The notes under the pieces are model-generated. The model was not told the origin of the DNA and made no database searches. It worked only from the letters and a program-made list of their open reading frames with translations. Positions 694-19,008 of a stretch of 64,000 nucleotides of DNA are shown one piece after another. The DNA is from Curvibacter sp. AEP1-3 (GTDB taxonomy: Bacteria > Pseudomonadota > Gammaproteobacteria > Burkholderiales > Burkholderiaceae_C), in the NCBI RefSeq assembly GCF_002163715.1, contig NZ_CP015698.1:2768201-2832200 (forward strand), given 5' to 3'. Both the position numbers and the translations under genes were made by a program. Each line of letters begins with the position of its first letter. The first letter of the stretch is position 1.

Positions 694-2694
694 TTAGATG
701 GGCGCGAGTTCACGCTCGCTTTTTGTGAAGATCGGCATGACTTCGTCCGAATCCGCGTCCAGATCTGCATCTGGTTCGAGCTCTGTATCAACAGGTACCC
801 GTGCGGCGTCCAGAGGGTCGTTTGCGCGTGGTGACAGAACAGCCTCACTGTCTAGAAGCTCAAGCGAAGCAACGGTCTTGCGCGTCTTGGTTTTTTTAGC
901 CACGACAGCTGCTTCAACGATGGCTTGAATCTCCGACTTCACCAAAAGCAACTGTTGCTGTGTCCATTTGTCTGTGAAGCGCTTGCGTGTCTGCGCACAA
1001 ATCATGCGGTGAACATACCGATTCAAGCCTTTCGCATAGGCCAAATCGACAGCAGGAACGTCCACAAACTCTTCCAAATCTGGATGAAACACCGAGATGA
1101 AACTCACGTCATGTTCGAAGGCACGAAGCACCAGTTGAGGCCGTTTCCCTTGATGCTTTTCCCGAAGCGCCTGCAAAACAGGTGAGTTGTAGTTCAAATT
1201 GTCATACTGGAGGCCGTAGTGAAACAAAGTGCGGCAGCCTTCAAATCCCACCATGGCATTCAACTGATGTGGAAATGCTGGTAGTTCTATGACCGTCCTG
1301 CTTGCCTCCATTTGCCATACATGAAGTGGAGTGAAGCCCTTGAGACCGCGGTGCGGTGTCTTGTGATAAACGTCCACAATCCATTTCAGAATGAGATGCG
1401 TCAGCACTTCAATATCGATAGCCGCATGCTTCTCACTGTCGTAATCGCCTTTTTCTTCAACATTCGAGAACGTAGTACCGGGTAGCTGGTGAATGAGACT
1501 GCGATTCAGTGTCCCAAGGAGCCGCTCAATGGCCCCCTTCATATAGGGCATGGCGATTCCGCAATAGTGAATCGTCATGCCCATCTCAAGAGCAACAGCA
1601 TCAATTGTGTGGCCGTGAAATTCCATTCCGTTGTCCGATACGAGCGTGTCGATGAGGCCGTGTGCCGGCCAAGGTCCCTCGATGTCCGGAAATTGCGCTA
1701 GCAACTCGTCCTTGGGTAAGATGGCTTGGCGCAAACAATAGAGAATTGAAATCTGTGACGGCGCGTGGAAACTCACGTAGAAGCCCACAATCATTCGGGA
1801 CTTACGATCCACGGCCAACGTCAACCATGGCCTTCCCAAGATAAGCCGAGTTTTTTCACAAATTACGGTGATGTCCAGCGGCGTGTGGTCAATTTCGACG
1901 CGTTGAAGTATTCGGTCAACTTGAACGCCTTCATTGGCCACTCGCATTTTCTTTTCAGTCGCAGCGGAGCCGTCTCTGGCGTTAGACACAATCCTGTTGT
2001 GCAAGTCCTTAAGCCATCGGTACACCGTGGCATCACTAGGCGGTCGTGAAACTTTCTCAGCCTGAACGCCCTCGTTGATGCGCTCAAACTTGCGTTTGAC
2101 CGCTTCTACTACAGCTTTGCCAGGCATCTTCTGAGGCGTCAAAAACACCTCAGAAGCCGCTTCATCGAACACACTCTTCTGCATAGGGTCAGCAGAGCGC
2201 CCGCGTTTTCCACGGGATTCAACGAGCTTCAGAATGCACTTTGTCGGACTGAACTTCTTCCACCAAGTCCACAAGGTATCGGCCTTTGGAGGGCTGGCGT
2301 CGTGAATCTCCGATGCAATTTTTTGAATAATTGGTTCTAAGGTTTCACGCGTTGAGACAAATTTTTTGCCGTCAACTGAAAACGCTTTAAGCGCACCCTT
2401 GATGTAACTGATTTTCCGCTTTACATTGACCTGATCCCCGGGCGCCAGGGATCGTAGATCTTTTGGTGCGGTGTAGTAAAAGACATTCTTTGATGGTCCA
2501 AGACTGTTTTCATCGATTTCCCAAACTTTTTCGATCCAGCGTTTGTGGACTTCCATTTCCGTCAATACATGGATCTCCCCGGCATCGTCTTCAAAACGAA
2601 AGCTACCATTGGCCAATACCCTCTCCAGGGTGAAGCCGTTGCTGTTCGACTTGGTCTTGAAGCGCAGTCCTTTTTTAAATGCAAAACGGATCAA
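694..2694 (-). CDS. tnsB: TnsB-like DDE transposase (Mu/rve family)
   Basis: This 666-residue transposase binds the transposon ends and performs strand transfer. The N-terminal part carries DNA-binding helical segments. The integrase-like core has a catalytic triad at about D269 (VEIDHTP), D354 (VSDNGMEF) and E390 (KGAIERLL), followed by a C-terminal region expected to contact TnsC. The TTG at 2694 was chosen because a strong ribosome-binding site (GGGAGG, 5 nt spacer) precedes it and it overlaps the tnsA stop by only 20 bp. An in-frame ATG at 2751 would add 19 residues deep inside tnsA. tnsA and tnsB are translationally coupled. Confidence 0.9.
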   Translation of the reverse strand: MIRFAFKKGLRFKTKSNSNGFTLERVLANGSFRFEDDAGEIHVLTEMEVHKRWIEKVWEIDENSLGPSKNVFYYTAPKDLRSLAPGDQVNVKRKISYIKGALKAFSVDGKKFVSTRETLEPIIQKIASEIHDASPPKADTLWTWWKKFSPTKCILKLVESRGKRGRSADPMQKSVFDEAASEVFLTPQKMPGKAVVEAVKRKFERINEGVQAEKVSRPPSDATVYRWLKDLHNRIVSNARDGSAATEKKMRVANEGVQVDRILQRVEIDHTPLDITVICEKTRLILGRPWLTLAVDRKSRMIVGFYVSFHAPSQISILYCLRQAILPKDELLAQFPDIEGPWPAHGLIDTLVSDNGMEFHGHTIDAVALEMGMTIHYCGIAMPYMKGAIERLLGTLNRSLIHQLPGTTFSNVEEKGDYDSEKHAAIDIEVLTHLILKWIVDVYHKTPHRGLKGFTPLHVWQMEASRTVIELPAFPHQLNAMVGFEGCRTLFHYGLQYDNLNYNSPVLQALREKHQGKRPQLVLRAFEHDVSFISVFHPDLEEFVDVPAVDLAYAKGLNRYVHRMICAQTRKRFTDKWTQQQLLLVKSEIQAIVEAAVVAKKTKTRKTVASLELLDSEAVLSPRANDPLDAARVPVDTELEPDADLDADSDEVMPIFTKSERELAPI

Positions 2695-3322
2695 ATTGAC
2701 CTCCCATTTGAGTTTGAGTGTGGACCACGCTGCAATCGGTGATTGGCGCATCGAGATTCATCCGCAGTCCATCCAAATAAATATGTTGATAAACGTGCTG
2801 GTTTCCGCCTAGTAGGTGGCTCAGCTCATCAAAACGCCAAGTTGCCTGCGCAGATATCGCCTCCTGCACCTGTTGGTCGACTACGCAATGAGCCACTTTT
2901 TTTGAGTGATTCCTGAGGGTGCGCAAGTTCGTGCGCAGTGGCTCCTTGCGAATTTCATCTTCTGTCAGAACACGGAAGGGACGGTCTTGATCAGCGAATC
3001 GTTTGGCAATAGCGCGGTACTTGTTTTGAAGAGTTGGGTTATCCAGCAGCGCCTTTGGTTTGACTTCAACAAGGAGCCTTTTGCCGCTCCTGAAGACCAG
3101 CAAAAAATCAGGAAAGTAGGTTCGGTGCCTTCCTTCGTGGTCGTAATAGAACTCCTCAGACGGTTGCTCGTAATAGCTGACGATAGACGGGTGAAACTCA
3201 AATAGATGAATAGCATCAAGTTCGAGCAATGATTCCCAATGAATCATCGTTTTCATTTTTCTGGAAGGAAACTTGCCACGAAATCGTTTGCCGCTTCGCG
3301 TTACTATTTTTCTGACTCTCAT
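2675..3322 (-). CDS. tnsA: TnsA-like heteromeric transposase endonuclease subunit
   Basis: TnsA cleaves the 5' ends of the element and makes Tn7-type transposition cut-and-paste. This 215-residue protein has the restriction-endonuclease-like fold signature: an acidic helix (ESLLELD, residues 30-36), D72 in YFPDF, and E86-V-K88 in LVEVKPK. A helical C-terminal domain follows. The ATG at 3322 is preceded by AAGGA at 7 nt. An upstream ATG at 3373 would add 17 residues without that support. It is the first gene of the tnsABC unit. Confidence 0.9.
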   Translation of the reverse strand: MRVRKIVTRSGKRFRGKFPSRKMKTMIHWESLLELDAIHLFEFHPSIVSYYEQPSEEFYYDHEGRHRTYFPDFLLVFRSGKRLLVEVKPKALLDNPTLQNKYRAIAKRFADQDRPFRVLTEDEIRKEPLRTNLRTLRNHSKKVAHCVVDQQVQEAISAQATWRFDELSHLLGGNQHVYQHIYLDGLRMNLDAPITDCSVVHTQTQMGGQFDPFCI

Positions 3323-3433
3323 AGAGGATTCCTTGTTTCTGAAGGCGTGTTTGATCCTGGCAAGACACGCCATGTTTTGAAGAAATTGTGGTGATTCGGT
3401 GGCCGCTAGGCCATTGCAACTCTCTGGCTTTGA

Positions 3434-5042: not shown

Positions 5043-6800
5043 ATGACGACAACTGGTTCCAGCGTTCCAACCATCTACAAACTAGCTATCGAGCGGTACC
5101 GTGGCATCAAGCATTTGTCGTGGCGGCCGGCGCGTGGCGTGAACCTTGTCCTCGGAGGAGGTGATGTCGGCAAGACGACGATACTAGATGCGATTAGTCT
5201 GCTGTTGAGTCCGACGAACAGTGCCACGGTGTTCGACAGCGACTACAACCTGCGCGACAACGAAGCAGAGTTCAACATCGAAGCGGTGATGGCCTTTCCA
5301 TCGGGCGGCGGCATCAATCAACTGACCAAGCCTTCCTGGCCCTGGATCTGGAATGGGCTCGACGCAATCGTGCCTGCTCACGACGAGAACAGCGCGCCAG
5401 GTGAAGAGGTCTATGTCTTACGTGTACGCGGCACGGCCGACTTGGAACTTAGCTATGAGATTGTCCAGCCCAGCGGTATGACCGAAGCACTGCCGGTCTC
5501 TTTTCGCCGCGCGATCGGTCTGGTCCGCCTAAGTGGCGATGACCGCAACGACCGCGATCTGCGGCTCGTGCAAGGCTCAGCCCTCGATCGACTGCTAACC
5601 GACAAGGGACTGCGCTCGCGCATGGCAAGCAATCTTGCTGAAAACAATGTGCGAGACGAGCTATCCGACGATGCACGTAAAGCCTTGGTCGATTTGGACG
5701 ATGCATTCCGCCGGCGGAGGTTGCCCGATGACCTTGATATCGCCGTCACCGGCGGGCCGGGTCCGTCGATTGCGTCGCTCGTCGGACTGACGGCGAAGCG
5801 GGGGACAGTGCAGCTGCCTCTGTCGAGCTGGGGCTCTGGGACCCGGCGATTATCTGCGCTGGCAATCGCCGAGCAAATTCAAGACGGCAACCCAATCACT
5901 GTCGTCGATGAAGTCGAACGTGGTCTGGAGCCGTACCGGCAGCGCATCCTGATGGATAGTCTACAGGGCGCCAGTTCCCAAGCATTCATCACGACTCATA
6001 GCCCCGCCGTGATCGCGGCCGCGGCGAAGGCTGCACTTTGGTATGTGGACCAGACTGGCAACTTGGGTCAACTCACAGGAGCGAAAGTCGCAAGACTCCG
6101 CGCGACTGATCCAGATTCCTTCCTAGCTCGGCTGACGGTTGTCGCCGAAGGTGTTACAGAAGTCGGATTCGTCCGGTCGCTGCTTACTAGGGCGCTAGCA
6201 TCAGAACTCCAGCCTCTTGGCTTCCATGTGGCCGATGGCGGTGGCCACGATACGACGATCGAACTCCTTGAATCCTTGTCCGCGGGCTGCATGCAGTTTG
6301 GCGGCTTCGCTGACGACGAGAACAGGCACCCGACGCGCTGGGCCAAAGTACAGAAGCAACTCGGTCCACTCCTTTTTCGTTGGAACTCGGGCGACATTGA
6401 GTCCAACCTCGTGGATGCGCTCGATGATGAACAAGTCGAAGCCTTCATCACCGATCCAGACGATGAAAAGACCGGACGCCGGCTGCGATCCCTGGCGATG
6501 CGCCTCAGAATTGAACCGAAGGACTTCTCCAGCATCAAGGCCGCAGCGGGGGGCGAACTCAAGCGATTTATCAAAGAGGCCGCTGGCGGCAAGGTGCCGA
6601 TAGGCACGCCCGAGGCCGACAAGAAGACGTATAGCAAGCAGGCGCAGGACTGGTTCAAGACAGAGCGCGGTGGTCGCGAGCTTGCCGAAAAGCTGTTCGG
6701 CCTAGGCATCTGGCCAACGCTAAAGGTGCACCTTCTACCCTTCTGCAATGCCGTTCGCGCGGTAGCAGGTCTGCAGGCACTGGAAGACCTGTCATCTTGA
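5043..6800 (+). CDS. gajA: Gabija GajA-like OLD-family ATPase/TOPRIM endonuclease
   Basis: This 585-residue protein matches the size and layout of GajA, the DNA-cleaving subunit of the Gabija anti-phage system. The ATPase domain has Walker A GGGDVGKTT (38-46), an ABC-like signature WGSGTRR (263-269), Walker B VVDEVE (287-292) and an H-loop THSP (318-321). A TOPRIM domain follows with EGVTE (369-373) and an acidic DDE stretch near 423-425 for metal binding. It overlaps gajB by 4 bp. Known GajA nicks DNA when nucleotides are depleted, and GajA and GajB form a large complex. The pairing makes Gabija more likely than a lone class 1 OLD nuclease. Confidence 0.85.
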   Translation: MTTTGSSVPTIYKLAIERYRGIKHLSWRPARGVNLVLGGGDVGKTTILDAISLLLSPTNSATVFDSDYNLRDNEAEFNIEAVMAFPSGGGINQLTKPSWPWIWNGLDAIVPAHDENSAPGEEVYVLRVRGTADLELSYEIVQPSGMTEALPVSFRRAIGLVRLSGDDRNDRDLRLVQGSALDRLLTDKGLRSRMASNLAENNVRDELSDDARKALVDLDDAFRRRRLPDDLDIAVTGGPGPSIASLVGLTAKRGTVQLPLSSWGSGTRRLSALAIAEQIQDGNPITVVDEVERGLEPYRQRILMDSLQGASSQAFITTHSPAVIAAAAKAALWYVDQTGNLGQLTGAKVARLRATDPDSFLARLTVVAEGVTEVGFVRSLLTRALASELQPLGFHVADGGGHDTTIELLESLSAGCMQFGGFADDENRHPTRWAKVQKQLGPLLFRWNSGDIESNLVDALDDEQVEAFITDPDDEKTGRRLRSLAMRLRIEPKDFSSIKAAAGGELKRFIKEAAGGKVPIGTPEADKKTYSKQAQDWFKTERGGRELAEKLFGLGIWPTLKVHLLPFCNAVRAVAGLQALEDLSS

Positions 6801-8320
6801 GCGACTCGAGTGTCCGCGCTGCCATTCGCTCCGACGCGCAGCTTGTCGTCGTAGAAGCTCCTGCAGGATGTGGCAAGACCCATCAAGGCGCAGACTACGC
6901 CAATGCTCTGTCTGAAGGACGCAACGCCCAGCGCACGCTCATCCTGACGCATACCCATGCGGCATGCTCTGTCTTCGCGGACCGTGCCAAAGAAGCCGGC
7001 TCTCGCGTGGAAATCGCAACGATTGACAGCCTGATTGCCAACATAGCCGGCGCGTATCACGCTGGACTTGGCCTGCCGGCGGATATCGCAGCATGGGTTC
7101 GTCAGCGCAAAGATGGCTACGGTGAACTGGCGCTCAGGGTCGCGGCACTGCTTGGGCGCCATCCCATGATCGCGAATGCGATCGCCCGTCGCTACCCTGT
7201 CGTGCTCTGTGACGAACACCAAGACTCAAGCGGTGATCAGCATGCCATAGTGATGGCACTGGCCGGACAAGGTTCGCGTGTGCGGATATTTGCCGATCCG
7301 ATGCAGCGCATCTTTCCTGACAAGCCGGTCAAGGGAGCTTTGCCGCGATACGACTGGAACGGCCTGACTGGCGCAGCACAGGCTTTTGAGCAGCTGGATT
7401 TTCCCCACCGCTGGAATCGGGGCGGCTGCCCTGATCTCGGAGCTTGGACCCTTAGAGCGCGTGATACGCTGCAGAACAATGGACGCATCGATCTCAGGTC
7501 TGGGCTACCGGACAGGGTCCAGGTAGTATTCGCCGAGAACCAGTCGCAGGTCCGTATGGGCATCCAACTGACCTCTGGGCAGCGAAAGCCGATCGACGAC
7601 TTTGAGAAGAGCCAGTCTTCGTTGCTCGTTCTCACGCGATACAACGAAACAGCACGGGCAATCCGGGCCATGTTCATGCGCCGCCTGCCGATCTGGGAAG
7701 GACACACAAGGGTTGGACTCGATCGGCTGGTTGCGGCCATCCAAGCTGGTACGGGCGATGCCACGACAATCGCCAAGGCAGTTGTCGCTTTCATGGATGA
7801 TGTCGGCAAAGGCTTTAGTCCATCGGCCTTTGGTGATCGACTCATCCGCGAGGTCGCGGAGGGCTGCACGAAGTCTACTTCCGGCAAACCGGCGCTGATC
7901 CAGGAGCTGGCTCGATCGCTGACAGCCGAGCCAAATCATATTGGTGTGTCGAAGTTGCTCCGGCGTCTGCGCGAGATGAAGGAGCAGCAGGCGACTTTCT
8001 CTGCGATAGAAATTGATTACAGCAAGGAATTCTGGGAGGCTGTTCGTCTGGGTGACTACGAAAGCCCTGAGGTTGGACTCATCGAAATCACTCACCGTCG
8101 TACCTACACGCGCCCTAAGCCTCCCACATGTGCCATTAGTACGATTCACAAAGCCAAGGGCCTCGAATGCGAGAGCGTCATTCTTCTCCCAGTCAATGCC
8201 AACACATTCCCGGATCAAGAAGATGCACGGTGCCTGCTGTATGTTGCGTTGAGCCGCGCATCGCATCGTCTGCAGCTAGTGTTGTCACGAGAGAATCCAA
8301 GCCCTCTGTTCGTGATCTAG
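6797..8320 (+). CDS. gajB: Gabija GajB-like UvrD/Rep-family helicase
   Basis: This 507-residue superfamily 1 helicase-like protein is the size expected of GajB (about 490-510). Motifs visible are Walker A APAGCGKTH (21-29), Walker B DEHQD (139-143), motif III-like ADPMQRIF (about 166-173), and C-terminal motifs STIHKAKGLE and LLYVALSRA shared with UvrD. The start is a TTG within TTGA, overlapping the gajA stop, so the two are co-translated. In Gabija, GajB is thought to sense DNA ends or damage and to activate GajA. The reading frame stays open as coding-like sequence for 34 codons after the stop. Confidence 0.85.
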   Translation: MSDSSVRAAIRSDAQLVVVEAPAGCGKTHQGADYANALSEGRNAQRTLILTHTHAACSVFADRAKEAGSRVEIATIDSLIANIAGAYHAGLGLPADIAAWVRQRKDGYGELALRVAALLGRHPMIANAIARRYPVVLCDEHQDSSGDQHAIVMALAGQGSRVRIFADPMQRIFPDKPVKGALPRYDWNGLTGAAQAFEQLDFPHRWNRGGCPDLGAWTLRARDTLQNNGRIDLRSGLPDRVQVVFAENQSQVRMGIQLTSGQRKPIDDFEKSQSSLLVLTRYNETARAIRAMFMRRLPIWEGHTRVGLDRLVAAIQAGTGDATTIAKAVVAFMDDVGKGFSPSAFGDRLIREVAEGCTKSTSGKPALIQELARSLTAEPNHIGVSKLLRRLREMKEQQATFSAIEIDYSKEFWEAVRLGDYESPEVGLIEITHRRTYTRPKPPTCAISTIHKAKGLECESVILLPVNANTFPDQEDARCLLYVALSRASHRLQLVLSRENPSPLFVI

Positions 8321-8578: not shown

Positions 8579-9649
8579 GTGGCACTATCAACTGAACTTG
8601 CCAAGATTATTGCTTCACTAAGAGACCAAAAGCACCCGTTTGGAGCTGTGCGTGAGGCAATGGCAGCGATTGATAAGGAAGCTGGAAATGGATGGGATAA
8701 GCTGCTGGAAAAACTTGGCAATTACTCTGCCGAGGAGCAAGCGACGATAAGCCGCCAGCTTTCTCAGATTATTCAAAGCAAGGCCATAGCTGGGCAAAAA
8801 GACTTGCATGTATTCCTTCTTGAGGATGACGAAGTAATACGAATATCGGCTGCGCTCGCTGGCCTCACAGCAACTGGTCCATACAGCCAAGACTTTCCAC
8901 TCCCCTTGTCGCCAACTCTTTTGGCTGGAAACACCACTGATCTGTTCCTCTCAAAGGTGATTTACAGGGAAAATGCCGATGTATCGCTGATATTTTGTTC
9001 GTCAAGAACTGAATATGACAAAATCAGCTATGACATGAATCAGGTGAATGTACATGTTCAGAATACGTTCGCTGGTTATGAACGAATCGTCGCAATAAAA
9101 AAATTACCTTATCAAATATTCGATGTGATCAATTTTCGGCCCAGCCTCAAGAGAGTTGAAGTGCTTGTCGATCAACCTCATCGAATGGGTGCCAACGAGA
9201 GCTCTGAGGATAGATGTTCAGCTGTATTGGCTATGGTTGCAAGTCGCAATCCAGACCTTCAGACAATGTATGAAAATAACAGTCCGCTCAACCTGTACGG
9301 CTGTATCAACTCCATGTATCAGCAGGCTGGCGAAGGGAAAGTAAAACGGTTGGCTTTTCGTGCCCCTTCGCAGTCACAGAAGAAAGAACAATTGAGTTCG
9401 GACGACGATTTAAGAACCGAAGAGTTTCACGCTGCTGGAGTGTTGAAAGTTGGCGTAATCACTGTCCACGATATAACGCTCCATTGGGCCAATCTAATCG
9501 GCGCCGCGGGAGGAGCGACTGCACGTATTAAAATTAACGTTGGTGGGCTATCAAATGAAGGTGCCTATGTTCGCTCGGCGGAGATAAATTGCGTATCTGA
9601 CACGGCCTTAGCAGTAGTAGTAAATAAACTTGTTGCGCACAGCAGCTAG
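8579..9649 (+). CDS. Unknown protein, first gene of a three-gene putative defence operon
   Basis: This 356-residue soluble protein has a GTG start preceded by GGAGGAGGGAAG. I recognise no family. An N-terminal helical part (about 1-75) contains a segment resembling an oligomerisation region. A beta-rich middle (about 80-220) follows, then a polar linker (SQSQKKEQLSSDDD, about 264-278) and a C-terminal beta-rich domain with INVGGLSNEGAYV. There is no signal peptide, P-loop or nuclease motif. Base composition is clearly more AT-rich than gajB upstream and the STAND gene downstream. The next gene starts 17 bp later, which marks an operon. It may be a sensor or scaffold for the nuclease of the third gene; this is inference only. 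Confidence 0.75.
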   Translation: MALSTELAKIIASLRDQKHPFGAVREAMAAIDKEAGNGWDKLLEKLGNYSAEEQATISRQLSQIIQSKAIAGQKDLHVFLLEDDEVIRISAALAGLTATGPYSQDFPLPLSPTLLAGNTTDLFLSKVIYRENADVSLIFCSSRTEYDKISYDMNQVNVHVQNTFAGYERIVAIKKLPYQIFDVINFRPSLKRVEVLVDQPHRMGANESSEDRCSAVLAMVASRNPDLQTMYENNSPLNLYGCINSMYQQAGEGKVKRLAFRAPSQSQKKEQLSSDDDLRTEEFHAAGVLKVGVITVHDITLHWANLIGAAGGATARIKINVGGLSNEGAYVRSAEINCVSDTALAVVVNKLVAHSS

Positions 9650-9666
9650 CAGATGTTTTCCACGCT

Positions 9667-10086
9667 ATGAGCTACTCTGCAATGGTCATAGAAAAGCTAG
9701 AGGCGATTTTTGGTAGAGAAAAACCAGAAGTGCGCATTGCTTCGACCATAGTTGCGTACGTCACTGAGCATGGGGATAGCGTCCACCACATCAATCTCGC
9801 GTTTGTAAAGAATCTCTGTAAGCTACCAAATACTGCGCATGTGGATGTATCGGTATTAAAAGCATTGCAGGCCTTGGCAGGCGATGCTATTGGCTATTTA
9901 AGTGTGGGTTTCGAGTACGTCGATAACAACGAGGAAATTCACAACATCTCTCGCGCTGAATTTTCCGGAGCAATTTACGACAGCATTGATCCAATCAGTG
10001 GCGAACGCGCGGACGACCTTGCTGAGAGGGTGCTAATTTTCTATTTTCCGGATAAGACGTTTCCAATGCGTCTACTTCATACATGA
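9667..10086 (+). CDS. Unknown small protein, middle gene of putative defence operon
   Basis: This 139-residue acidic protein follows the preceding gene by 17 bp and overlaps the next by 4 bp (ATGA). The N-terminal 100 residues look like alternating helices with a strand pair, compatible with a winged-helix fold (about residues 20-75, then GYLSVGFEYVD). That is a judgement from pattern, not from a recognised family. It has no signal peptide or membrane segment. The size and middle position resemble adaptor components of three-gene defence modules. Confidence 0.7.
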   Translation: MSYSAMVIEKLEAIFGREKPEVRIASTIVAYVTEHGDSVHHINLAFVKNLCKLPNTAHVDVSVLKALQALAGDAIGYLSVGFEYVDNNEEIHNISRAEFSGAIYDSIDPISGERADDLAERVLIFYFPDKTFPMRLLHT

Positions 10087-10751
10087 CATCAGCTGCAGAC
10101 GTACGCCGACTTCAAGCTATGGATGACATGCTGGCAGGGTACTTGGCCAGGCTAGCAGTTAATTCATATGAAGATTTTGTGCGCAATCTGTATGACCAGA
10201 TACACAGATCAATTAACAGTTTAGAGAATTACAAACACTACATTGAACATGAAGGCGAAGATGCCACTACCGCAAGAATAATCATGTTCTTGGAGGGAGC
10301 TGGTCTCAAGGCGCGGCAGCAAGCTGCGGGGGGGAATGTCGACATTTATGTAGACGATTTGACGAATAATTTCAAATGGATTGGTGAAGCAAAAAAATAT
10401 GAGTCCGTCACTAATATCGCGGAAGGGTTCAAACAATTAGTGACGAGATACGCATCCGGCAAAGATAAAAAAGGAAAAGGATACGGTGCTCTGATCGCAT
10501 ATTTGCGGAGGCCAAATACAATTCATCACGTTGATGCATGGAAAGATACCATCGCAAAATTGCCTGAGGCAACCAACGTTCGGTTCTCAGAGTGCCAGCG
10601 AATGGCGCCCTTTGCCTTTCTCTCCGAACACGACCACCAAGAGACAAATTGCAGCTATGAGACGTGGCATGTCTGCGTTCAACTTTTGGTTGACCCAAAG
10701 GACAAGAGCGGAATTGAATCAAAGGCAGGTAAGAAACGTAGAGCTGCTTAA
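10083..10751 (+). CDS. Predicted PD-(D/E)XK nuclease, third gene of putative defence operon
   Basis: This 222-residue protein carries a restriction-endonuclease-like core. It has a helix with acidic residues (EHEGEDATTARIIMFLEGAG, about 55-74), then GGNVDIYVDD with D87, then WIGEAKKY with E102-x-K104. This is the D...ExK arrangement of PD-(D/E)XK enzymes. The C-terminal part contains conserved-looking Cys, His and Trp residues (CSYETWHVC), and the tail is basic (KAGKKRRAA). Translation is coupled to the preceding gene by ATGA. It is probably the DNA-cleaving effector of the operon; the substrate is unknown. Confidence 0.7.
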   Translation: MTSAADVRRLQAMDDMLAGYLARLAVNSYEDFVRNLYDQIHRSINSLENYKHYIEHEGEDATTARIIMFLEGAGLKARQQAAGGNVDIYVDDLTNNFKWIGEAKKYESVTNIAEGFKQLVTRYASGKDKKGKGYGALIAYLRRPNTIHHVDAWKDTIAKLPEATNVRFSECQRMAPFAFLSEHDHQETNCSYETWHVCVQLLVDPKDKSGIESKAGKKRRAA

Positions 10752-13610: not shown

Positions 13611-13832
13611 TTAGTGGTCGAACTTGTATTCAGCAAGCTTGCCAGTTCTCGCCTCTTCAAGACCCAACATCGTGTCTTGAATCAACCGTATCGGCAATTC
13701 AGGGTTGTCCAATACAGCCTTGCCAATTCGAGCCCAGTATTCAATCTGTTTGGGTACAGATCGATGCTCGGCCAATGCAACTATTTTTGCATCGTCAACA
13801 AGGCCTTTGGAGAGCTTAATCGGTACGGGCAT
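13611..13832 (-). CDS. ParD-like type II antitoxin (orphan)
   Basis: This 73-residue protein resembles the ParD-like antitoxin family: PVPIKLSKGLVDDAKIVA followed by RSVPKQIEYWARIGKAVLDNPELP. Such proteins form ribbon-helix-helix dimers. ATG 13832 is used here; a TTG at 13859 would add 9 residues. The gene converges on the STAND gene 26 bp away. No ParE-like toxin is visible on either side, so it looks orphaned. Confidence 0.75.
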   Translation of the reverse strand: MPVPIKLSKGLVDDAKIVALAEHRSVPKQIEYWARIGKAVLDNPELPIRLIQDTMLGLEEARTGKLAEYKFDH

Positions 13833-13859
13833 AGTCGGAATTCTTTGAGCAAGGGCCAA

Positions 13860-15106: not shown

Positions 15107-15430
15107 ATGGACGCAATACAAACGGTGAAGGCCCTGGGCGCTTTGGCCCATGAAACCCGCCTCTCGGTGTTCAGGATGCTGGTCCAGGCCGGTCCCGAAG
15201 GCCTGACACCCGGCGTCATCGCCGAGACGCTGGAAATGCCGGCGCCTCCTCTGTCTTTCCACCTGAAAGAACTGACCCAGGCGGGGCTCATCGTGGCCCG
15301 CCCCGAGGGCAGAAAAATCCATTACAGCGCCAACTTCACCGCCATGAATGAACTGGTCGGCTACCTCACCGAGAACTGCTGCGGTGGCCAGGCCTGTGAA
15401 GTTGACGCGGCGGGCGCCGCCTGCTGCTAA
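15107..15430 (+). CDS. arsR: ArsR/SmtB-family arsenic-responsive repressor
   Basis: This 107-residue winged-helix repressor has the ArsR core: LAHETRLSVFRMLVQ, a recognition segment APPLSFHLKELTQAG, and the wing ARPEGRKIHYSA. The usual CVCDL box in the recognition helix is absent. Cysteines cluster at the C-terminus instead (CCGG, C98 region, CC end), suggesting an As(III) site like those of ArsR variants with C-terminal cysteines. It is the first regulatory gene of the operon, 45 bp before arsC, and probably represses it until As(III) binds. Confidence 0.9.
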   Translation: MDAIQTVKALGALAHETRLSVFRMLVQAGPEGLTPGVIAETLEMPAPPLSFHLKELTQAGLIVARPEGRKIHYSANFTAMNELVGYLTENCCGGQACEVDAAGAACC

Positions 15431-15475
15431 GGCTGGTTGTTCAGCCTTCAAGAAACCCTTTTCCGAGAGATCACC

Positions 15476-15973
15476 ATGTCCGAAAAAGTCTACAACGTGC
15501 TCTTCCTGTGCACAGGCAACTCCGCCCGCAGCATCCTGGCCGAAGTCCAGCTCAACGTCTTTGGCCGCGGCAAGTTCAAAGCCTTCTCTGCAGGTAGCTA
15601 CCCCAACGGGATCGTGAACCCGTTCGCCATAGAGTTCCTGGAGAGCAATGGTTTTCCCACAGAAGGCTTGCGCAGCAAGTCCTGGAACGAGTTTGCCGTG
15701 GAGAGTGCTCCGGTCATGGACTATGTGATCACGGTGTGCGACCAGGCGGCCGGTGAGCAGTGCCCGTACTGGCCCGGTCAGCCCATGTCGGCCCACTGGG
15801 GTGTTCCTGACCCTGCGGCCGTCGAGGGGACGGATGACCAGAAACGCCGTGCCTTCCGCGATACCGCAGCTGTCATGCGTCGACGCATCGAGATGTTCAC
15901 GGCCTTGCCCGCAGCTTCGCTGGATCGCCTCAGCCTCAAATCCAAACTGGACGAAATCGGCAAAACGGCATGA
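15476..15973 (+). CDS. arsC: Arsenate reductase, thioredoxin-coupled (low-molecular-weight PTPase family)
   Basis: This 165-residue enzyme reduces As(V) to As(III) using a P-loop cysteine, FLCTGNSARS (about 10-19), then the resolving cysteine pair in VITVCDQAAGEQCPYW. The ATG at 15476 (MSEKVYN) is chosen over 15437 because family members start at this point. It overlaps the aquaporin gene by 4 bp. A second, unrelated arsenate reductase lies two genes downstream. Confidence 0.92.
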   Translation: MSEKVYNVLFLCTGNSARSILAEVQLNVFGRGKFKAFSAGSYPNGIVNPFAIEFLESNGFPTEGLRSKSWNEFAVESAPVMDYVITVCDQAAGEQCPYWPGQPMSAHWGVPDPAAVEGTDDQKRRAFRDTAAVMRRRIEMFTALPAASLDRLSLKSKLDEIGKTA

Positions 15974-16659
15974 ACTGGCGCAAGGAATTTGTGGCCGAGT
16001 TCATCGGCACGGCCATGTTGTTGGCCACGGTGGTGGGCTCCGGCATCATGGGAGAGCGGCTGGCTGGCGGCAACGTCGCGGTCGCCTTGCTGGCCAACAC
16101 CCTGGCCACCGGTGCGGCCCTGATTGCCTTGATCGCCACCTTTGGGCCAACCTCCGGCGCGCACTTCAATCCCTTGGTGACCATCACCGAGGTGGTCATG
16201 AAGCGCGCGAGTTGGGGCAAGGCCTCGGTCTACCTGATCGCCCAGGTCCTGGGGGCCATTGCCGGCGTGATGGCCGCCCACTACATGTTCGAGCTGCCGC
16301 TGCTGATGGAATCCACCCACATGCGTACCGGCTCGCACCAATGGTGGAGCGAGATTGTCGCGTCGTTCGGTCTGCTGACCATCATCCTCAATGTCGCAAA
16401 GACACGGCCTGACTTCGTGCCCGTTGCTGTCGGGGCGTACATCACTGCCGCTTACTGGTTCACCGCGTCCACCTCCTTCGCCAACCCGGCCGTCACCATC
16501 GCCCGGTCGCTGACCGACACCTTCTCCGGCATCCGCCCCACCGACGTGGCGGGCTTCATCCTGAGCCAGGTGGTAGGCGCCGCTCTGGCCCTTGCCCTCT
16601 TCAAATGGTCGGAAGGGGCTCCCGCTTCGACCACCTCAACCCCCCACCAGTCCGACTGA
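15970..16659 (+). CDS. MIP-family aquaporin of the ars operon (AqpS-like)
   Basis: This 229-residue membrane channel has six predicted membrane spans and the two half-helix motifs HFNPLVT (NPL, about 59-65) and FANPAVT (NPA, about 174-180). In ars operons lacking ArsB or Acr3, such channels let As(III) formed by ArsC leave the cell down its gradient, as established for AqpS of Sinorhizobium. Translation is coupled to arsC by ATGA and the next arsC follows within 4 bp. The NPL variant in the first motif is typical of this subgroup. Confidence 0.88.
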   Translation: MNWRKEFVAEFIGTAMLLATVVGSGIMGERLAGGNVAVALLANTLATGAALIALIATFGPTSGAHFNPLVTITEVVMKRASWGKASVYLIAQVLGAIAGVMAAHYMFELPLLMESTHMRTGSHQWWSEIVASFGLLTIILNVAKTRPDFVPVAVGAYITAAYWFTASTSFANPAVTIARSLTDTFSGIRPTDVAGFILSQVVGAALALALFKWSEGAPASTTSTPHQSD

Positions 16660-16662
16660 ACC

Positions 16663-17082
16663 ATGTCCATCACGATTTATCACAATCCCGCCTGCGGAAC
16701 CTCCCGCAACACCCTGGCCCTGATTCGCAACTCCGGCGAGGAGCCTGAAGTCATTGAGTACCTGCAAACACCGCCCAGCAAGGCCACGCTGCAGTCCCTT
16801 ATTGCCGCCATGGACATCGGCACCCGCGCACTCCTCCGAGAAAAAGGCACACCCTACGAGGAACTGGGCCTGGCCGATCCCAAGTGGACCGATGACCAAC
16901 TGGTGGACTTCATGCTGGCCCATCCCATTCTGATCAACCGCCCAGTGGTGGTCACTTCCTTGGGTACCCGGCTGTGCCGCCCCAGCGAGGCAGTGCTGGA
17001 CCTACTGCCCAAGCCGCAGCAAGGCGCGTTCACCAAGGAAGACGGCGAGAAGGTGATCGACCAGAAGGGCCAACGTGTCTGA
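16663..17082 (+). CDS. arsC: Arsenate reductase, glutaredoxin-coupled (ArsC family)
   Basis: This 139-residue enzyme has the R773-type ArsC signature [12 protein letters not shown] with the catalytic Cys at residue 11, and the arginine-containing INRPVVVT segment that binds oxyanion. It uses glutathione and glutaredoxin to reduce arsenate, a route distinct from the first arsC. The stop overlaps the arsH start by 8 bp. Two mechanistically different reductases in one operon suggests redundancy or use under different redox states. Confidence 0.93.
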
Positions 17083-17797
17083 AACCTCTTTGCCCTCCAG
17101 CAACCTGGACGCTGCGTGCTTCCAGATTCCCAGCCAAGCCACTCTGCAGCCCGCCAAGGTATCTACCCACCCGCCACGCATCCTGATGCTCTATGGCTCG
17201 CTGCGGGAACGCTCCTACAGCAAGCTCCTGACACTGGAGGCGGCCCGTCTGCTGGAGACCATGGGCGCGCAGGTCAAAATCTTTGATCCCGAAGGCCTGC
17301 CGCAACCCGACGGCGCCCCGGAAAGCCACCCCAAGGTGCTGGAACTGCGGGAGCTGGCCACCTGGTCCGAAGGCATGGTCTGGAGTTCCCCTGAGCGCCA
17401 CGGCGCCATGTCCGGCATCATGAAAAGCCAGATCGACTGGATTCCCTTGTCGCAGGGCGCGGTGCGCCCAACCCAAGGCAAGACACTGGCCCTGATGCAG
17501 GTCAACGGCGGTTCGCAGTCCTTCAATGCCGTCAACCAGATGCGCATCCTGGGCCGCTGGATGCGCATGATCACAATCCCTAACCAAAGCTCGGTGGCCA
17601 AGGCCTTCGCCGAGTTTGATGAAGCCGGGCGCATGAAACCGTCTGCCTTCTATGACCGCGTGGTGGATGTGATGGAAGAGCTGGTCAAGTTCACGCTGCT
17701 GACGCGCGATGTGTCGCCCTACCTGGTGGACCGGTACAGCGAGCGCAAGGAAACGGCTGCAGAGCTGTCCAAGCGGGTGAACCAGCGGGCCATTTAG
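17075..17797 (+). CDS. arsH: ArsH NADPH-dependent FMN reductase (organoarsenical oxidase)
   Basis: This 240-residue flavoprotein has the flavodoxin-like motif [12 protein letters not shown] (about 41-52) and [20 protein letters not shown], both diagnostic of ArsH. Family members oxidise trivalent methylated arsenicals and reduce quinones or metal ions. The N-terminal 30 residues are a variable extension. The MFS gene follows 8 bp later. Confidence 0.92.
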
Positions 17798-17805
17798 AAA
17801 ACCTG

Positions 17806-19008
17806 ATGGCACACGCCGGCCGGACTCGCATTGTTCTGACCCTGGGCACGGCCCAGACCTTGGCGTGGGCGTCGACCTACTACCTGCCTGCCATCCTGGC
17901 TGCGCCCATTGCCGCCGAGCTGGGCCTCAGCGTGGCCACGGTGTTTGCGGCCTTCTCGGTTGGGTTGGTCATTTCTGCGTTTTTGGGTACGCATGCCGGT
18001 CGTGCCATTGACCGGTTTGGCGGCCGCCCCGTGCTGGCATCGACCAACTTGGTCTTTGCTGCGGGCCTGATCGGCCTGGGTTTGGCCAGTGGCCCCATCG
18101 GGCTGTTTGCTGCCTGGATCGTGCTGGGTGCCGGCATGGCGGCGGGACTGTATGAGGCTGCGTTTGCGACGCTGGTGCGGCTCTATGGCCACAACGCCCG
18201 CAACATGATCACCGGGATCACCCTGCTTGCGGGGTTCGCCAGCACGGTGGGCTGGCCGTTCTCTGCTGCCATGGAAGCATGGATAGGCTGGAGGGGGACG
18301 TGCTTTGCTTGGGCAGGACTACATCTGTTGTTGGCACTGCCCTTGAATCTGTCATTGCCCAGGCTGGTTGACGAACAGGCGATTGAGTCGGTGACAACGC
18401 CTCAAACAGGCAACTGGACCGCACCCTCTGCACCTGTGCCTCTCAGCAGCGCCATCTTGCTCTCGGTCGTTATTGCCATCACCTGGTTCATCAGCACGGC
18501 CATGGCGGCCCATTTGCCGGCACTGCTTAAAGCCTGTGGTGCCACGGTGGCGGTGGCATTGACTGCTGGGGCGCTGATTGGCCCGGCACAGGTCGCTGGT
18601 CGTCTGCTGGAGTTTGGAGTGCTGCGCCGGGTCCATCCTCTGATCAGCGCCCGGATCGCCGCCTGCCTCCACCCAGTGGGGGCTATCAGCTTGGCCCTGT
18701 TTGGCGCGCCAGCGGCGATCTTCTTTGCGCTGGTGCATGGCGCCGGCAACGGCATCCTAACGATTGCCAAAGGCACACTGCCGCTGGTCCTGTTCGGCCC
18801 CAAGGGCTATGGCGAGCGCCAGGGACTACTTATGGTCCCGGCCAGGCTGGCCCAGGCATTGGCACCTTGGTTGTTTGGTGTCTTCATGGCGCAGTACGGG
18901 ATCAATGCACTCTGGATCTCCGCTGGTATTGGCCTGGTCGCAGCTGTAGCCCTGTTGCGCCTGGCTCCGGTGAAACCCAGTAGTCACGATATGAAGTGGC
19001 CATCATGA
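17806..19008 (+). CDS. MFS transporter of the arsenic operon
   Basis: This 400-residue protein has about 12 membrane helices. The MFS motif A appears between helices 2 and 3 as GRAIDRFGGRPVL (about 65-77). It is the only active transporter in the operon. It overlaps the phytochelatin synthase gene by 4 bp (ATGA). Candidate substrates are As(III), methylated arsenicals, or thiol conjugates made by the next gene. Relation to ArsK or ArsJ cannot be decided here; the GAPDH partner typical of ArsJ is absent. Confidence 0.8.
   Translation: MAHAGRTRIVLTLGTAQTLAWASTYYLPAILAAPIAAELGLSVATVFAAFSVGLVISAFLGTHAGRAIDRFGGRPVLASTNLVFAAGLIGLGLASGPIGLFAAWIVLGAGMAAGLYEAAFATLVRLYGHNARNMITGITLLAGFASTVGWPFSAAMEAWIGWRGTCFAWAGLHLLLALPLNLSLPRLVDEQAIESVTTPQTGNWTAPSAPVPLSSAILLSVVIAITWFISTAMAAHLPALLKACGATVAVALTAGALIGPAQVAGRLLEFGVLRRVHPLISARIAACLHPVGAISLALFGAPAAIFFALVHGAGNGILTIAKGTLPLVLFGPKGYGERQGLLMVPARLAQALAPWLFGVFMAQYGINALWISAGIGLVAAVALLRLAPVKPSSHDMKWPS

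Follow-up and report, generated by a model that had tools for sequence, protein, structure and literature searches.

The 64,000-nt stretch analysed here, called the window throughout, belongs to Curvibacter sp. AEP1-3 (contig NZ_CP015698.1, positions 2,768,201 to 2,832,200 of the forward strand) and harbors three adjacent genes (g1, g2 and g3, together the trio) that most likely form a conserved, mobile anti-phage module made of a sensor with an RdgC fold, a winged-helix adaptor and a PD-(D/E)XK nuclease. The features in question are the following:

8579..9649, + strand: gene 1 (g1), an open reading frame (ORF) with a GTG start, 356 aa, modelled as N-terminal helices plus an RdgC-like fold (approximately residues 66-356); proposed sensor
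9667..10086, + strand: gene 2 (g2), an ORF of 139 aa, modelled as a winged-helix protein; proposed adaptor between sensor and nuclease
10083..10751, + strand: gene 3 (g3), an ORF of 222 aa, predicted PD-(D/E)XK nuclease effector, matching phrog_9664 (E 1.1e-43)
10257..10436, + strand: catalytic core of gene 3, with E59 (10257), D87 (10341), E102-x-K104 (10386-10394) and Q118 (10434), identical in 97/97 rows

The tight packing described in an earlier note on this DNA is confirmed, with three plus-strand ORFs separated by a 17-bp gap (g1-g2) and a 4-bp overlap (g2-g3), and so is the lower GC content relative to both flanks: 0.463, 0.457 and 0.454 for g1, g2 and g3 versus 0.591 for gajA, 0.582 for gajB and 0.593 for the STAND-like gene on the right. 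None of the three presents a credible Pfam, NCBIfam or PADLOC match and gene 3 alone gives weak sub-threshold rows; gene 1 returned no Pfam family at E 1 and no NCBIfam family, while PADLOC 2.0.0 matched the window trio to no model at E 1. The same database returned nothing at E 0.1 for 10 relatives, six of them making up the trios of L059 and L044, the former being identical in DNA to the Escherichia coli S40 trio. The remark that the proteins match no recognised family is hence correct for these three collections and incorrect for PHROGs, in which g1 (phrog_12777, 3.6e-34), g2 (phrog_11490, 2.6e-9) and g3 all fall into families without known function.

Relatives were collected mainly by gene 3, whose searches returned 5 phage records, 63 loci on IMG/VR contigs (plus 55 by a second profile, on partly overlapping contigs), 63 loci on GTDB contigs and, for plasmids, 16 records plus 16 by a second query, with 12 taken for analysis. 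Two plasmid records were found by gene 1 (L006, L007) and one E. coli locus by trio DNA (L138). Every other counted locus outside the window was reached through gene 3, so the presence of genes 1 and 2 beside it is not a selection artefact. Profiles for the three genes, trained partly on the same loci from seeds of 6-13 rows, were run on all ORFs and detected the complete trio in 61 of the 63 loci of the first IMG/VR scan and in 53 of 54 of the second, all three exceptions lying at contig ends. The final count holds 209 loci (L001-L148 minus L134, L135 and L137; L174-L182; L186-L239; and the window), with L149-L173, L183-L185 and L240-L316 left out because they cover places already counted at greater length, match weakly or are host loci of EF-Tu, FtsZ and S3. 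At 90% identity gene 3 forms 137 clusters, and in 115 of them genes 1-2-3 follow in this order on one strand in at least one member, with median gaps of 1 bp and -4 bp; co-occurrence in other genomes, which the earlier note had proposed as a check, is therefore common far outside this genome. The other clusters comprise 11 gene-2 fusions, 3 gene-3 fusions, 4 pairs of genes 2 and 3 without detectable gene 1, 3 cases without a gene-2 match beside gene 3 (L147, L178, L179) and 1 locus cut by a contig end.

Residues E59, G84, D87, W99, E102, K104, G115, Q118 and Y123 are identical in all 97 aligned gene-3 relatives, so the D87/E102-x-K104 core pointed out earlier is not a chance pattern, and every row carries the PD-(D/E)XK signature of D...(D/E)-x-K with supporting Glu and Gln. 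The gene-3 profile matched no PDB sequence at E 1. From these residues gene 3 is a predicted PD-(D/E)XK nuclease and we infer nuclease activity for its product.

The structure model of gene 1, compared with known folds, lies nearest to RdgC and has the overall RdgC/RexA fold. By sequence, gene 1 does not belong to RdgC, with no curated-family match (Pfam at E 1, NCBIfam), and no known non-defence family of the kind that would speak against a defence role was matched in these databases for the trio; yet the modelled resemblance is to a recombination protein. DNA binding by gene 1 is expected from this kind of fold. The gene 1 family (8579-9649 in the window) also presents near-invariant D198, R279 and G287 together with a DLR-x-E-x-YH-xx-G segment, which the RdgC resemblance does not explain. 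For gene 2, the guess of a winged helix gained support from a confident model (pLDDT 95.6), whose top structural neighbors are mostly winged-helix proteins at middling Z (<=8.0), a comparison in which a fold missing from the neighbor lists is not thereby excluded.

The surprise concerns the proposed sensor, whose place can be taken by restriction enzymes or by copies of proteins of the host. Eleven clusters lack gene 1, and their gene 2 makes up the C-terminal part of a larger protein directly before gene 3, with these fusion partners:

L100: type ISP restriction-modification enzyme (Pfam)
L097, L102, L105: partners that look like type ISP enzymes (by eye from the sequence)
L122: HsdR (Pfam)
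L139: MmeI-like enzyme (Pfam)
L103: ResIII-type helicase (Pfam, slightly below cut-off)
L118: FeeM-like acyltransferase (Pfam)
L129: EF-Tu with all three domains (Pfam)
L131: FtsZ (Pfam)
L176, 743-1804: ribosomal protein S3 (Pfam)

Restriction-modification partners account for six of the 11 (four type ISP-like, one HsdR and one MmeI-like). Alongside the L103 helicase, P0026-P0028 count as separate relatives, and P0029 is another type ISP enzyme by its listed domains. The L139 fusion is alphaproteobacterial by its record, L176 comes from a genome of the Litoreibacter family, and the named organisms carrying gene-2 fusions are, we take it, alphaproteobacteria. Gene 3 in turn is fused to a large protein in three cyanobacteria, and the two of these that were scanned (L083, L093) contain both NACHT and HEAT domains. 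The EF-Tu fusion is immediately preceded by a GHKL-ATPase gene (L183 7510-9462, HATPase_c_3), which itself follows an HD-domain gene; the two are possibly another defence pair.

The three host-like parts differ in how closely they follow the genuine proteins. In Asticcacaulis machinosus the genome's own FtsZ is 94% identical to the fused one, and both form with the FtsZ of one other genome a three-row clade (97/97) whose internal order is left open. The fused FtsZ keeps 173 of the 174 columns that are invariant in 23 other FtsZ (the own copy likewise differs at 1) and ends in the FtsZ C-terminal peptide, gene 2 being inserted before that peptide. Between fused and own FtsZ the dN/dS is 0.07, with 27 synonymous and no amino-acid differences in codons 200-300 (L184 7916-9802), a value that is no proof of selection after capture because pairwise values mix both lineages and, in the case of EF-Tu, synonymous sites are saturated (pS 0.75). 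The two ordinary EF-Tu genes of Litoreibacter roseus, identical to each other, share 87% identity with the fused EF-Tu, which alters 3 of 258 invariant columns (own: 1) and shows 15 fusion-specific versus 3 own-specific changes. The fused S3 is only 65% identical to the genome's own, alters 30 of 117 invariant columns (own: 0) and shows 51 fusion-specific changes versus 1 own-specific. The trees leave out short or partial rows, namely one of 27 EF-Tu rows, L264 (EF-Tu), L288-L290 (FtsZ) and L315 (S3). Judged from these alignments, the FtsZ and EF-Tu copies look like constrained, close mimics, part of whose constraint may predate capture, and the S3 copy looks strongly altered. Many of its changes at otherwise invariant positions fall in alignment columns 63-82 and 149-159, which are perhaps nucleic-acid contacts. 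A mis-joined assembly was considered for the EF-Tu and FtsZ fusions and dropped, since in DNA they share just 76% and 82% identity with the corresponding genes of the host; the S3 fusion is the least secure, with a contig of 3,289 bp and a weak gene-2 match. The fused host proteins could serve as baits for phage proteins.

Copies of the trio are found in prophages, on plasmids and in chromosomes. In E. coli S40 (L138 6010-8228) it lies within a P2-like prophage with the replication endonuclease gene on one side and the portal gene on the other (the gpA-gpQ hotspot), beside DarT-like and macro-domain genes, and the Klebsiella phage KP12 record has it at the same site. With one E. coli trio variant as query, matches were obtained in 28 of 5426 E. 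coli genomes, all chromosomal, the 15 listed matches being annotated as hypothetical. Other homes are a Moraxella prophage, a corticovirus-like Vibrio element, a cyanobacterial plasmid and plasmids of 6 kb and 19 kb, and the trio also occurs in cyanobacterial and proteobacterial genomes. These locations in prophages, small plasmids and the P2 hotspot, along with the NACHT-HEAT and restriction-enzyme fusions, point to anti-phage defence and favor the earlier proposal of a third anti-phage module at this locus. Little weight is given to the company that the relatives keep: the largest ORF on each side of 47 of the 63 genome loci (those of at least 14 kb) makes 94 proteins, of which 93 were scanned with PADLOC (one was over the length limit), and the 82 PADLOC families at E 1e-20 or better come without a background control. 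Among the 25 families listed are MkoA (2 members), type I R and M, Drt2, NERD+UvrD, PDC-S02, PD-T4-6 and a type IV enzyme; the RTasSbcB match is in fact an SbcB-like exonuclease near the FtsZ fusion.

The best explanation, which we hold to be probable but well short of settled, is a mobile three-component anti-phage module that combines a nuclease, an adaptor and an exchangeable phage sensor, some of the sensors being integrated decoys. Gene 3 would be an effector nuclease kept inactive until infection and gene 2 the winged-helix adaptor that couples it to the sensor. In the common form this sensor would be gene 1, whose RdgC/RexA kind of fold would grip DNA and respond, in the manner proposed for lambda RexA, to phage DNA or to a replication or recombination intermediate. 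Once the sensor is disturbed, the adaptor would release the nuclease, which would cut phage DNA and probably host DNA. In the alphaproteobacterial fusions to restriction enzymes, anti-restriction proteins could trip the nuclease, while the EF-Tu, FtsZ and S3 copies would attract phage proteins that attack those targets.

Two other readings have to be weighed against this, and we regard each as improbable. The trio might be an addiction module, similar to toxin-antitoxin pairs, that stabilizes prophages, plasmids and transposons, with gene 3 as a toxin neutralized by genes 1 and 2 and defence at most a by-product. Sites in mobile elements, the 6-kb plasmid included, and a short, ordered and overlapping operon are typical of such modules. 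A conserved, folded 356-aa protein and a winged helix are nonetheless both kept, where toxins usually have one labile antitoxin, and maintenance alone hardly explains fusions to restriction enzymes, NACHT-HEAT proteins, EF-Tu and FtsZ. The addiction and defence readings overlap, given that such modules can also defend. Alternatively, in a direct restriction scheme that seems to us similarly doubtful, an RdgC-like ring of gene 1 would clamp foreign DNA for gene 3 to cut there without host suicide, and the restriction-enzyme fusions would add a second nuclease. The six of 11 gene-2 fusions to restriction-modification enzymes, already DNA binders, agree with this, but the fusions to EF-Tu, FtsZ and S3 are left unexplained, none of these proteins being a DNA-recognition module; the usual trio also lacks an accompanying methylase or self-marking gene. 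A housekeeping role, in which an RdgC-like recombination protein and a nuclease serve phage DNA metabolism, is suggested by the RdgC resemblance and by the many copies on viral contigs (61/63 loci with the whole trio, the other two cut by contig ends), but is very improbable, as the trio also resides on plasmids and in genomes of cyanobacteria and proteobacteria and, within P2-like prophages, occupies not core genes but the accessory gpA-gpQ hotspot, which in the published survey occurs 18,150 times with 1,650 arrangements (PMC9122126), versus one trio variant in 28 of 5426 E. coli genomes.

The anti-phage module that we prefer has partial counterparts among known systems. Rousset et al. 2022 described the P2-like gpA-gpQ hotspot and validated from it a three-gene system that confers protection against P1 (PMC9122126). 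By description it resembles the trio in that none of its genes has a clear domain and in its place between gpA and gpQ of E. coli P2-like prophages. The S40 copy shares this location; the window copy lies outside any P2-like prophage. Presumably Rst_3HP is the name of the validated system. The S40-type trios may belong to the same family, and since a three-gene system from the same hotspot is already known to be protective, whether the trio is undescribed, as the earlier note supposed, is uncertain. Rst_3HP is listed in the DefenseFinder paper among the systems mostly encoded on prophages (PMC9090908).

RexA is described as a DNA-binding protein of phage exclusion whose fold resembles that of RdgC (PMC11077077). 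Lambda RexAB is comparable to the trio in this fold, shared with the gene 1 model without a sequence match. The partner of RexA, RexB, is a membrane protein, whereas gene 1 is accompanied by a predicted nuclease and a protein modelled as a winged helix. RdgC itself differs from gene 1, which has no Pfam match at E 1, carries extra N-terminal helices and stands in an operon with a nuclease. The logic is shared with effector-triggered immunity, of which PARIS, PrrC, Ronin and Panoptes are examples built from other parts (PMC12409349). In PARIS, PrrC-EcoprrI and Ronin the effector is tripped by a phage protein attacking a host defence component, which fits the restriction-enzyme fusions; their effectors differ in being tRNA nucleases or a short toxin, and the available part of the same source describes no EF-Tu, FtsZ or S3 mimics (PMC12409349). 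A literature search over titles and the starts of abstracts, with subscription papers and bioRxiv preprints mostly outside it, returned no description of such decoy fusions or of the trio. In plant NLRs with integrated decoys, the immune protein carries as bait a fused copy of what a pathogen targets, and the same bait-fusion concept would apply here with a bacterial winged helix and PD-(D/E)XK nuclease instead of an NLR. If true, this would give bacteria a counterpart to the integrated decoys of plants, and from the fused host proteins one could read which targets in alphaproteobacteria (translation, division and restriction) come under phage attack. An RdgC-fold sensor coupled to a nuclease would also be relevant to the long-standing question of the RexA signal, and the modularity of the fusions opens the sensing logic to direct tests in laboratory strains.

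Within the genus, gene 3 is present in 2 of 100 genomes, this one included; even sampling of the Alphaproteobacteria revealed no further system in 384 other genomes, and a tblastn search of phages with gene 1 found nothing, although its PHROG exists. Scans of alphaproteobacterial families returned matches in 6/393, 1/248 and 4/393 genomes besides the centre genome. Six of these 11 were accepted: trios in G777, G1272, G1319 (probably the same genome as L112, found again) and G1372, an S3 fusion in G676 and, in G592, two copies that are odd or degenerate. G720, G911 and G1140 showed weak matches in long frames and are not regarded as this system. G768 and G874 (L178, L179) are not regarded as this system either and are still counted among the 137 clusters as lacking gene 2; in both, a distant relative of gene 3 comes after a type III Res-like helicase (4405-8570 in L178), perhaps as a sister system. 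Among irregular copies, genes 2 and 3 of L147 lie approximately 1.3 kb apart in an interrupted copy, and gene 3 of L177, judged by eye, has lost conserved nuclease residues and is degenerate. Some labels look doubtful: the "Acinetobacter phage MD-2021a" contigs (L001, L002) carry bacterial metabolic genes, and the A. baumannii "plasmid" of L147, at 3.97 Mb, is chromosome-sized.

Back in the window, the trio had been placed between two known defence systems. On its left the Gabija pair is real (5043-8320; PADLOC GajA 5.8e-70 and GajB 1.5e-58), and none of the trio genes matches GajA or GajB in PADLOC. The right-hand side is likely a defence gene on weaker grounds, its STAND-like gene scoring slightly below the Pfam cut-offs for AAA_22 (25.8 bits, cut-off 27) and Cap4-nuclease (24.4, cut-off 26.2). 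The left side also holds a helix-turn-helix gene and Tn7-like TnsB and TnsA genes (694-3373, - strand), and the defence cluster beside them may be cargo of a Tn7-like transposon. After the STAND-like gene comes a ParD-like antitoxin gene (13611-13859, - strand, Pfam E 1e-15), and further right of the cluster, at approximately 15107-19008, lies an arsenic-type operon with an ArsC-family match, an MFS transporter and, by eye, an ArsR-like regulator.
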